Assembly (NCBI GenBank): GCA_905478015.1
Contig: CAJQGY010000005.1
Location: 1-41,400, forward strand
DNA from: an uncultured SAR86 cluster bacterium
GTDB lineage: Bacteria; Pseudomonadota; Gammaproteobacteria; Magnimaribacterales; D2472
Direction of reading: 5' to 3'
Length of the DNA stretch: 41,400 bases
The notes beneath the pieces were generated by a model, which searched no databases, was not told the DNA's origin, and worked only from the letters and a program-made list of their open reading frames with translations. Numbering within the stretch: the stretch's first letter is position 1; each line of letters starts with the position of its first letter. Below, piece by piece: positions 6,995-22,471 of the stretch. The position numbers and the translations under genes were made by a program.

Positions 6995-9816
6995 TTTTTT
7001 AAAATATCTTTTAAAAAGGCTCCAGTATAGGAGCCTTTTTTATTTGAGACATCCTCTGGAGTCCCCTCAGCAACAATTGTTCCACCCTCACTTCCTCCTT
7101 CTGGACCTAAATCAATAATCCAATCAGCTGTTTTTACAACATCTAGGTTATGTTCAATTACAACAATTGTATTTCCTTGTTCTTTAAGTCTATTTAGTAC
7201 ATTCATCAATAACTCAATATCTGCAAAATGAAGTCCCGTTGTTGGCTCGTCTAAAATAAATAAAGTCTTACCAGTGCTGCGTTTAGATAGCTCTTTAGCA
7301 AGCTTAATTCTTTGAGCCTCGCCTCCTGAAAGTGTTATTGCAGATTGCCCGAGAGTAATATACCCAAGACCGACATCATTTAGGGTTACTAACTTTTTCT
7401 TTATAGCGGGGTGAGCATCAAAAAAATCAAGAGCTTCCTCTACTGTCATATTTAAAATATCACTTATGTTTTTTTCTTTAAATTTTACTTCTAATGTTTG
7501 TTCGTTATATCTATCACCATTACAAACATCACACTTTACATAAACATCTGCTAAAAAGTGCATTTCAACCTTCGTCATACCATCACCTTGACAGGCCTCA
7601 CATCTCCCACCTTTTACATTAAAACTAAATCTTCCAGGCTTATAACCTCTAGATCTAGCCTCAACAGTCTGAGAGAGCAAATCTCTAATGTGAGAAAACA
7701 ACCCAGTATAAGTTGCTGGATTAGACCTTGGCGTTCTGCCAATTGGAGATTGATCAATATTAATCACCTTATCAAGATGCTCCAGTCCTTCAACTTTTTC
7801 GCATTTAATTTCTTTGGTTAGCTTTGATTTATTAAGCATAAATGAACTAAGCGGAAGAAGGGTTTGGTTAATAAGAGATGACTTACCAGAACCAGAAACA
7901 CCAGTTATGCATGTAAATAAACCTACTGGGATACTTGCTGAAACATTCTGAAGATTGTTCTCATTAGAATTAACTATAGTAATAAATTTTTCTGAGCATG
8001 GCTTTCTCTTTTTTGGAATGACTATTTGCCTCTCACCAGAAAGATATTTTGCAGTTATGGAGTTTGGATTGTTAAGTATGTCTTCAAGCGAACCTTCTGC
8101 ACATATCTCGCCACCATGTTTACCTGCACCAGGGCCTATATCAATTATATGATCTGCACATCTAATAGCTTCCTCATCATGCTCTACAACTATAACCGTA
8201 TTGCCTAGATCTTTAAGATTATTTAATGTTTTAATAAGCTTTTCATTATCTCGTTGATGAAGTCCAATTGACGGCTCATCTAGAACGTATGTCACACCAA
8301 CTAAGCCAGATCCAATTTGACTTGCTAACCTAATTCGCTGAGCCTCTCCTCCTGATAAACTTTCTGCACTTCTTTCTAAGGTCAGGTAACTCAATCCAAC
8401 ATCTTCAAGGAAAGTTAGTCTATCGGAAATCTCTTTTAAAATTTTCTCAGCAATTTTTAACTCAGACCCTTTTAAGTTCATATTTTCAATAAATTTAGCA
8501 GCATCATTTATTCTTAAAGATGTAATAGAACCAATTGGAGTCTTATTAATAAAAACATTTCTTGAAATTCTGTTTAACCTAGATCCATTACAAACATTAC
8601 ATGAACTTTTAGACATTAGTTTTGATAATTCTTCTCTTATATATTCTGAATCAGTTTCTTTGAATCTTCTTTCTGTGCTTGGAATAATTCCTTCAAATTT
8701 ATGTTTTCTAACTATCTTACTTCCACTTCTAAACCTATGAGAAAAATCTACTTTATCTTTAGAGCCCCAAAGAATTATTTTTTTAATTTCATCAGGATAA
8801 TCTTTCCATGCGGTTGTTAGGCTAAAATTAAAATGACTACTTAGGCACTTAAGTTGATAGAAATAGAATCTATTTCTTCTTGTCCAGCCTTTTATTGCTC
8901 CATTGCTTATGGATACATCTTCATCTTGTATCAATCTTTTTTCATTGAAATATTGTATGACCCCCAAGCCATCACATTTCTCACAAGCACCATAGGGATT
9001 ATTGAATGAAAACATTCTAGGCTCTAGTTCCGGAATACTATAACCACACTTTGAACAAGAAAAATTAGATGAAAATAATTGTATATTTTGTTCATTGTCT
9101 ATTTCTTCAATTTCAACCAATCCGTCTGATAAAAACAAGGATGTTTCTATTGATTCTGACAGCCTAGATCGACCCTCTTCTGTTTTTTTTAAAACCACCC
9201 TGTCAATAACTGCTGAAATATCATGCTTTTTATTTTTTTCAAGCTCCGGAAATTCTTCAATAGGGTACACAACTCCATTTACCTTTACTCTTACATAACC
9301 AGCTTTTCTAAGCTCTTCATATACAGAATTATGCTCGCCTTTCTTTCCTCTCACTAGGGGAGCTAAAACCATTAGCTTTGCACCATCTGCCATTTTAAAA
9401 ATATCGTTACAGATTTCGCTAACTGTTTTTGCCTTTAATTCTTCATTATGATCAGGACAAATCGGCGTTCCAACTCTCGCATATAAAAGTCTTAGATAGT
9501 CATATATTTCCGTTACAGTCCCAACGGTTGACCTTGGGTTATGAGAGGTTGCTTTCTGCTCTATCGAAATTGCAGGCGATAAACCTTCAATTTGATCAAC
9601 ATCTGGTTTTTCCATCATCGATAAGAACTGCCTAGCATAAGTTGATAGTGATTCTACGTACCTTCTTTGCCCTTCTGCATAAAGAGTATCAAAAGCAAGA
9701 GAAGATTTTCCGGAACCAGATAACCCTGTAATTACTACTATTTTGTTACGAGGTATTTCTAGGCTTATATTCTTTAAATTATGAGTTCTAGCACCTTTAA
9801 TGTAAATATTGTCCAT
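6991..9816 (-). CDS. uvrA: Excinuclease ABC subunit A
   Basis: The 941-residue product is a full-length UvrA (E. coli 940), the damage-sensing ATPase of nucleotide excision repair. It has two ABC ATPase modules. Walker A motifs are GLSGSGKSS (residues 31-39) and GVSGSGKSS in the second half, and each module has an LSGGEAQRI signature and a [12 protein letters not shown] Walker B. Zinc-binding Cys motifs include CSKCGYS...CEKC in the first half and CEACQGDG...CDVCNG in the second. It is divergent from ssb (69-nt spacer), a common gammaproteobacterial arrangement. The last codons contain the terminator hairpin serving rplQ. Confidence 0.97.
7013..7045 (+). terminator. Intrinsic terminator of the ribosomal operon, inside uvrA
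   Basis: A perfect 11-bp stem (7013-7023 with 7030-7040) closes a 6-nt loop, AGTATA. A T-rich run follows on the + strand (TTTTTT at 7036-7041, then ATTT). The arms are AAAAAGGCTCC and GGAGCCTTTTT. It starts 19 nt after the rplQ stop and lies wholly within the 3' end of uvrA. Read on the minus strand the hairpin also forms, but the T-run after it is interrupted, so it should work best for the rightward ribosomal transcript. Confidence 0.88.
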
Positions 9817-21480: not shown

Positions 21481-21885
21481 ATGCAAAAAAAGAATAAAGA
21501 ATTACAAAAAGCTGGATTAAAAGCGACTCTCCCTAGAATAAAAATTTTAGAAGTTTTGGAGGCTAAGGGTCATCTTAGCGCTGAAGCCATCTACAAAGAA
21601 TTAATCTTGATGGATGAAGATGTAGGCCTTGCAACAATTTACAGAGTTCTTACTCAATTTGAATCAGCCGGGATCGTAATAAAACATAATTTTGAAGAAG
21701 CACATGCTGTTTATGAGATTGTTTCAGATGAACATCACGATCACATGGTGTGTATTGAATCAGGAAAAATTATAGAATTTCATGACGAAATTATTGAAGA
21801 AAGACAGTCTGAAATTGCTAGCAAGTATGGGTATGAAATTGTGGATCACAACATGGTTTTATACGTAAAAAAAATTAAATCCTAA
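21481..21885 (+). CDS. fur: Ferric uptake regulator Fur
   Basis: The 134-residue regulator has LRKAGLK-like LQKAGLKATLPRIKILEVLE, the recognition region VGLATIYRVLTQFESAGIV, and the metal-binding HHDHM (residues 85-89). In the segment CIESGK (91-96) only the first Cys of the E. coli CxxC pair remains and there are no C-terminal cysteines, so the structural Cys4 zinc site is absent. This resembles the shorter Pseudomonas Fur. It represses iron-uptake genes when loaded with Fe2+. It is divergent from bamE. Confidence 0.95.
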   Translation: MQKKNKELQKAGLKATLPRIKILEVLEAKGHLSAEAIYKELILMDEDVGLATIYRVLTQFESAGIVIKHNFEEAHAVYEIVSDEHHDHMVCIESGKIIEFHDEIIEERQSEIASKYGYEIVDHNMVLYVKKIKS

Positions 21886-21898
21886 ATTCACAAAAACT

Positions 21899-21926
21899 CT
21901 TGAACTAATTATTTGTATCCTCATAT
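21899..21926 (+). promoter_or_regulatory. Sigma-32-type heat-shock promoter before grpE
   Basis: CTTGAAC at 21899-21905 and CCTCATAT at 21919-21926 are separated by 13 bp. The E. coli RpoH consensus is CTTGAAA-N11-16-CCCCATnT, so each element has a single mismatch. Transcription would begin about 6-8 nt after 21926, giving a short leader that already contains the GAGGA site of grpE. This fits heat-shock control of grpE-dnaK-dnaJ. Confidence 0.75.
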
Positions 21927-21942
21927 ACGTCCTATGAGGATA
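21916..21942 (+). promoter_or_regulatory. Perfect 10-bp inverted repeat covering the grpE ribosome binding site
   Basis: TATCCTCATA (21916-21925) and TATGAGGATA (21933-21942) are exact reverse complements around a 7-nt spacer. The right arm contains GAGGA, 6 nt before the grpE ATG, and pairs with TCCTC in the left arm. The left arm also coincides with the -10 of the sigma-32-type promoter. In RNA read through from fur the hairpin would hide the ribosome binding site. RNA started at the heat-shock promoter would lack most or all of the left arm. It is not a CIRCE element. Confidence 0.8.
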
Positions 21943-21946
21943 AATT

Positions 21947-22471
21947 ATGTCAAATGATACTAAAGAAGATAATCTAGATTTAGATCAAAGTTCTGAGCCT
22001 TTGCAAGATGAGAGCATTGAAACCGATAGTTACGAAGAGCTTCTTGAAAAAAATCAAAATTTAGAGAAGTCATTCTTAAGAGCAACTGCTGATTTAGACA
22101 ATGCCATTAAAAGAACAGCATCTGAAGTAGAAAAAGCTCACAAATATGGAGTTGAAAAGCTCCTGAATGAGCTATTACCAGTGGTTGATAATATTGAGCA
22201 TGCTTTAGATAAATTATCAGAAGATGCGTCAGATGAAGATAGAGAGGGTCTTGAATTAACTTTGAAGTCTTTTGAATCTGCTCTTGATAAATTCGGAATG
22301 AGACCTATCTATCCTGATAATGAACAGTTTAATCCCGAAAAACATGAAGCTGTCTCAGTTATTCCTAATGAGGATAAAGAAGACGGAATGGTAGGGGATA
22401 TTTTTCAAAGGGGCTGGGAGCTCCATAACAGAATCTTAAGACCGGCAAGAGTGACGGTCATTAAGAATTAG
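21947..22471 (+). CDS. grpE: Nucleotide exchange factor GrpE
   Basis: The 174-residue protein has an acidic, disordered N-terminus, a long helix (SYEELLEKNQNLEKSFLRAT), and the C-terminal beta domain with NPEKHEAVSV and GWELHNRILRPARVTV. It releases ADP from DnaK. It is first in the grpE-dnaK-dnaJ-dapB run, 15 nt before dnaK. GAGGA is 6 nt upstream of the ATG and lies in the inverted repeat described separately. Confidence 0.96.
   Translation: MSNDTKEDNLDLDQSSEPLQDESIETDSYEELLEKNQNLEKSFLRATADLDNAIKRTASEVEKAHKYGVEKLLNELLPVVDNIEHALDKLSEDASDEDREGLELTLKSFESALDKFGMRPIYPDNEQFNPEKHEAVSVIPNEDKEDGMVGDIFQRGWELHNRILRPARVTVIKN

Follow-up and report, generated by a model that had tools for sequence, protein, structure and literature searches.

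Hairpins of the ROSE type lie within the leader of a gene's own mRNA and melt on warming. In the ROSE-type thermometer of ibpA, a heat-shock gene, the Shine-Dalgarno (SD) sequence is paired (PMC3669281). In phage T4, early read-through RNA of gene e forms a hairpin over the ribosome binding site (RBS) and yields about 100-fold less lysozyme, while the 5' strand of the structure carries the late promoters and late RNA is free of the hairpin (PMC3014915). In early or middle RNA the RBSs of I-TevI, segB and mobE are hidden; a late promoter that lies within the structure gives RNA in which they are exposed (PMC2988022). In B. subtilis, sigG lies behind another operon and has its own alternative-sigma promoter, and a large hairpin forms only in the RNA that reads through from PspoIIG (PMC5942855).

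The window, that is, the whole 41,400-nucleotide stretch analyzed here, belongs to a draft SAR86 genome of 1.07 Mb. It carries a 61-nt spacer between fur and grpE, with dnaK and dnaJ downstream (Table 1), and fur relatives (52-95% identity) precede grpE at every inspected locus of the order. The original prediction had placed in this spacer a near-consensus sigma-32 promoter (CTTGAAC, 13 bp, CCTCATAT) and an exact 10-bp inverted repeat with a 7-nt loop, its left arm over the -10 element and its right arm holding the GAGGA of grpE. Both features were confirmed: the promoter spans 21899-21926 with a 13-bp spacer, TATCCTCATA and TATGAGGATA are exact reverse complements, and their coordinates agree with the proposed overlaps. 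The count of 7 A-U pairs out of 10 is also correct, since TATCCTCATA has 3 C. When the promoter pattern was scanned genome-wide, the counts were near the background of a reversed control pattern and nothing informative emerged beyond the grpE site.

Table 1. Features of the fur-grpE region (positions in the window).
Feature	Position	Strand	Remarks
fur	21481..21885	+	134-aa ORF; co-directional upstream gene, proposed source of read-through
sigma-32-type promoter -35, CTTGAAC	21899..21905	+	from sequence; CTTGAA[CG] in 86/86 family genomes with a grpE match
outer 8-bp helix, left strand	21908..21915	+	RNA fold; found in G001 too
left (5') hairpin arm TATCCTCATA	21916..21925	+	exact complement of 21933-21942; overlaps the -10
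sigma-32-type promoter -10, CCTCATAT	21919..21926	+	from sequence; C-rich, ATAT-ending form kept in the family
hairpin loop, 7 nt	21926..21932	+	predicted sigma-32 start site lies in it or next to it
right (3') hairpin arm TATGAGGATA	21933..21942	+	holds GAGGA; from sequence and fold
grpE Shine-Dalgarno GAGGA	21936..21940	+	ends 6 nt before the ATG
grpE	21947..22471	+	174-aa ORF, ATG at 21947
outer 8-bp helix, right strand	21951..21958	+	RNA fold; within grpE codons 2-4
dnaK	start 22487		

Perfect 10-bp repeats with loops of 3-12 nt are as such not rare, occurring at 3 loci in the 41 kb against about 1 expected; inside the 61-nt spacer one arose in 22 of 20,000 shuffles. The 85-nt RNA from 21886 to 21970 folds at -16.5 kcal/mol, compared with -8.9 ± 2.6 for shuffled sequences (z -3.0), better than 200 of 200 dinucleotide shuffles. 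Elsewhere in the window, at 7013-7040, the strong inverted repeat AAAAAGGCTCC/GGAGCCTTTTT has the appearance of a two-way terminator. In the RNA fold of the window's genus the start codon is bracketed by the outer 8-bp helix. A start-codon lock as a family-wide feature was rejected, as across the family it did not exceed scrambled promoters or controls. In g4 (L133-L154) a second pairing is possible: G[TC]CATC, which precedes the -10, could bind GATGGC at the start codon. This pairing would cover the start codon directly and is exact in L141 and L152.

RNA made from sigma-32 promoters starts some 5-9 nt past the -10, and from this usual spacing the start site is predicted at about 21931-21935. 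The left arm sits upstream of that position and would for this reason be missing from heat-shock RNA. No site with a G+C-rich stem and a T run was found between fur and grpE on the + strand (0 sites), and AATTATG follows the hairpin stem where a terminator would need its T run. Because a terminator is absent between the two genes, read-through from fur into grpE is likely, judging from the sequence.

These elements probably work together as a transcript-origin switch. RNA coming from fur or from further upstream would carry both arms and fold, and since the hairpin would hide the ribosome site of grpE, GrpE would be poorly made from it. RNA from the sigma-32 promoter would start approximately at the loop, lack the left arm and, with an unstructured leader of about 12-17 nt, be translated. 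The -10 strand, or in some genera the strand between -35 and -10, would double as an anti-SD arm. We infer that read-through does take place, that the two RNAs differ in translation and that the benefit would be to keep GrpE, and possibly DnaK and DnaJ by polarity, under sigma-32 control despite a neighbor that lacks a terminator.

Of 107 family genomes, 86 yielded a grpE homologue, and between fur and grpE every one of these 86 carries a sigma-32-type promoter. Its elements are separated by 13-14 bp, and 17-24 nt lie between the -10 and the start codon. In nearly all of the 86 genomes the strand of the promoter is paired to the SD region of grpE, through hairpins of about 6-14 bp that reach into the promoter spacer and past the SD. 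The hairpins differ in arm sequence, register and loop length (4-27 nt), and the left arm begins at any point between -14 and +1, counted from the -10. The arms are TCCTCATA/TATGAGGA in g1, TCCCTA/TAGGGA in g3, CCCAATA/TATTGGG in g4 and g5 (with a further pair, ACCCCTAT/ATAGGGGT, in g4) and AAATCCC/GGGATTT in g8 and g9 (with a further pair, AATATCCC/GGGATATT, in g8). The arms of g6 are ACCCTA/TAGGGT, with the left one displaced to a position before the -10; the right arm of g10 is the region of the start codon. Helices are weak and loops large in g9, and pairing is poor in two single genomes, g7 and G043. The latter (L167) has frame breaks in both fur and grpE, probably assembly errors. In a second family of the order (f2; 17 distinct sequences) the promoter is kept and SD-covering hairpins are built differently, for example as TCTTAA-AGCC/GGCT-a-TTAAGGA or by pairing of the -35 CTTG with the SD AAGG. 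In families f3 and f4 the two genes overlap or are almost adjacent, and neither promoter nor hairpin was seen there. At these loci (L217-L237) no sigma-32-type promoter was found in the 150 nt before fur either, despite the presence of rpoH. We considered loss of rpoH as the cause and ruled it out, since each of the order's four families has rpoH.

A C-rich -10 and a G-rich SD some 20 nt apart could pair by chance, the promoter fixing CCC and the SD fixing GG, and the hairpin would be a by-product of this baseline. Since such elements do pair somewhat by themselves, the arms of each of 72 distinct sequences were compared with swapped arms. The duplex energy was -11.6 kcal/mol for own arms, -10.5 for arms swapped within a genus and still -8.9 for arms swapped between genera. 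In a permutation stratified within genera, own arms paired better (z 5.0), with 0 of 5000 permutations as good. For the removal of kinship we used genome pairs on non-overlapping paths of a Fur+GrpE tree. In these phylogenetically independent pairs, helix strength was significant at all distance thresholds (Wilcoxon p 0.001-0.009), and folding energy gave p 0.0008 at a distance of 0.3 or more. In the cost of opening the RBS, coupling between the arms showed only among distant pairs (p 0.02 at a distance of 0.3 or more, p 0.57 over all pairs); the distance thresholds were introduced once the result without a threshold was known, and every threshold is reported. We relied on permutations and independent pairs because a MAFFT alignment made for pair counting, in which the variable loop threw the arms out of register, had to be set aside. 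With own arms outpairing swapped ones in both kinds of test, and helices extending into the spacer and beyond the SD, chance pairing is very improbable as an explanation. The comparison indicates that the pairing is kept by evolution with compensatory change, and the hairpin is well supported as a conserved feature at the RNA level; the arms of relatives, proposed as a check in the original prediction, are conserved and covary.

The same symmetry could be read at the level of DNA, as a palindrome over the -10 and start site that binds a repressor, its overlap with the SD being a by-product of the short spacer. Repressors do bind at -10/+1 positions, dyad symmetry in DNA equals pairing in RNA, and the mismatches in the arms (18 G-U against 17 A-C) do not favor RNA. 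A dimeric repressor, however, needs fixed half-sites and spacing, and neither was found at grpE: the changes of arm sequence between genera, the wide range of loop lengths and the shifting position of the left arm all weaken the case for a fixed operator, which the original prediction had also raised. The start codon region as right arm in g10 is also at odds with it, and the palindrome is absent from the htpG and groES promoters. We regard an operator as quite unlikely.

The transcript-origin switch was also considered in terms of modeled accessibility. For read-through RNA at 15°C, the predicted cost of opening the RBS averaged 14.5 kcal/mol over the 72 sequences. For sigma-32 RNA it was 3.7, and for RNA with a scrambled promoter 10.9-11.1; the modeled values for dnaK and groES were 4.5 and 8.9 kcal/mol. 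The excess over scramble was 3.5 ± 0.3 kcal/mol in the window's own family and 2.1 ± 0.4 in the second family. The fraction of SD nucleotides paired upstream was 0.76, versus 0.54 with scrambled promoters, and 69 of the 72 sequences had an upstream-paired SD. Compared with the SDs of dnaK and groES, that of grpE is weaker and varies more, as though pairing had compromised it.

An A-U-rich helix over the SD of a heat-shock gene also brings to mind an RNA thermometer, which on warming would melt and allow existing fur-grpE RNA to be translated quickly, on top of sigma-32 induction. The modeled opening cost of the window's RBS does drop, from 18.1 kcal/mol at 5°C to 12.5 at 37°C. In the model, however, the SD of the window hairpin remains over 95% paired at all temperatures between 5 and 65°C, with little change in most other genomes tested, so the predicted structure does not open in the physiological range. 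This weakens the thermometer put forward as an alternative in the original prediction. In addition, the pairing is exact, without the mismatches typical of thermometers, and no Rfam match appeared up to an E value of 1. A thermometer is thus unlikely.

Other heat-shock genes of the family served as controls. In family genomes htpG has a sigma-32-like promoter, a short leader and a co-directional gene upstream, and its RBS showed no excess pairing (0.1 ± 0.5 kcal/mol over scramble, 7 htpG sequences), which also speaks against chance pairing of similar promoter and leader elements at grpE. By inspection, groES has a 60-70-nt leader without such a repeat. Both genes lie 44-210 nt behind co-directional genes and lack the hairpin; it is therefore specific to grpE among these genes, and silencing of read-through RNA is no general need of heat-shock genes here. 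A role as a general insulator of heat-shock genes was ruled out on the same grounds. Inspection of Pseudomonas- and Halomonas-type genomes revealed a much longer sigma-32 leader of grpE, without this repeat. The transcript-origin switch anticipated in the original prediction thus finds support, at the level of sequence, in the covarying arms and in the absence of the pairing from matched heat-shock genes.

Several further observations concern these control genes and ClpB. Upstream of groES (L238-L287), the sigma-32-like promoter of the family is unusual: it reads TATTGATTT/TATTGAATT, has a -10 of the GCCC[AT]TAA type and is unlike the CTTGAAC type of grpE. At htpG of G044 (L353) a small repeat, ACCCA-AAAAA-TGGGT, lies at the promoter, beside the SD and not over it. 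Among 23 family genomes, G047 and G106 alone gave a full-length ClpB match (just under the curated cut-off); the remaining matches are split and lie in ORFs some 750 aa long that probably encode ClpA, so ClpB is seemingly missing from most of the family.

Selection for pairing would also be expected if the hairpin stabilized the 3' end of fur mRNA, RNA entering grpE being trimmed back to it. The absence of a terminator downstream of fur fits this idea, and the hairpin is the first strong structure past the fur stop codon. A 3' stabilizer would be free to sit anywhere in the spacer, though, and in every promoter-bearing family inspected the 3' arm is located at the SD or the start of grpE, in keeping with the prevalence of upstream-paired SDs in the modeled set. 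Nor is there such a hairpin in f3 and f4, with their overlapping or abutting genes. We give this explanation little credence.

For the transcript-origin switch we lean, with some reserve, toward a broader formulation: that the -10 acts as an anti-SD with compensatory evolution across two SAR86-type families, that translation of this core chaperone operon follows the sigma factor that made the RNA, and that the sequences of promoter and ribosome site limit one another, CCTCATAT going with GAGGA here and CCCAATAT with TTGGG elsewhere. If this is true, a deeply conserved case on a housekeeping heat-shock operon would show that abundant bacteria whose genomes are small and encode few regulators can make translation depend on promoter identity in a span of about 50 bp, with no need of a protein regulator or a terminator, and fur-grpE RNA in SAR86-type metatranscriptomes may not mean GrpE production. 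RBS hairpins that silence read-through RNA have so far come mainly from phage late genes and sigG. A literature search of partial coverage found no earlier one on a heat-shock operon, and to our knowledge no such case has been described.

Among the known systems, the ROSE-type thermometer shares with grpE a paired SD in a heat-shock gene, but it is carried in the gene's own mRNA, whereas the sigma-32 RNA of grpE would lack one arm and the modeled hairpin does not melt. As in T4 gene e and sigG, the RBS of grpE pairs upstream of the predicted start site and the promoter lies in or next to the 5' arm; at grpE the pairing is conserved with compensation. Transcription may reach grpE from the co-directional fur, 61 nt away with no terminator-like site between. 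Gene e is a phage late gene with late promoters, while here a bacterial chaperone gene is combined with a sigma-32 promoter and repression is predicted. The I-TevI, segB and mobE hairpins belong to mobile phage genes, where they serve to keep the endonuclease low and to safeguard splicing. As a chromosomal gene with its own alternative-sigma promoter and a read-through hairpin, sigG resembles the grpE case; it is a sporulation sigma gene with a hairpin of 20 or more bp, whereas here hairpins of about 6-14 bp precede a heat-shock operon in a streamlined marine lineage. The proposed design at grpE matches that of T4 gene e, of the T4 homing endonuclease hairpins and of B. subtilis sigG.
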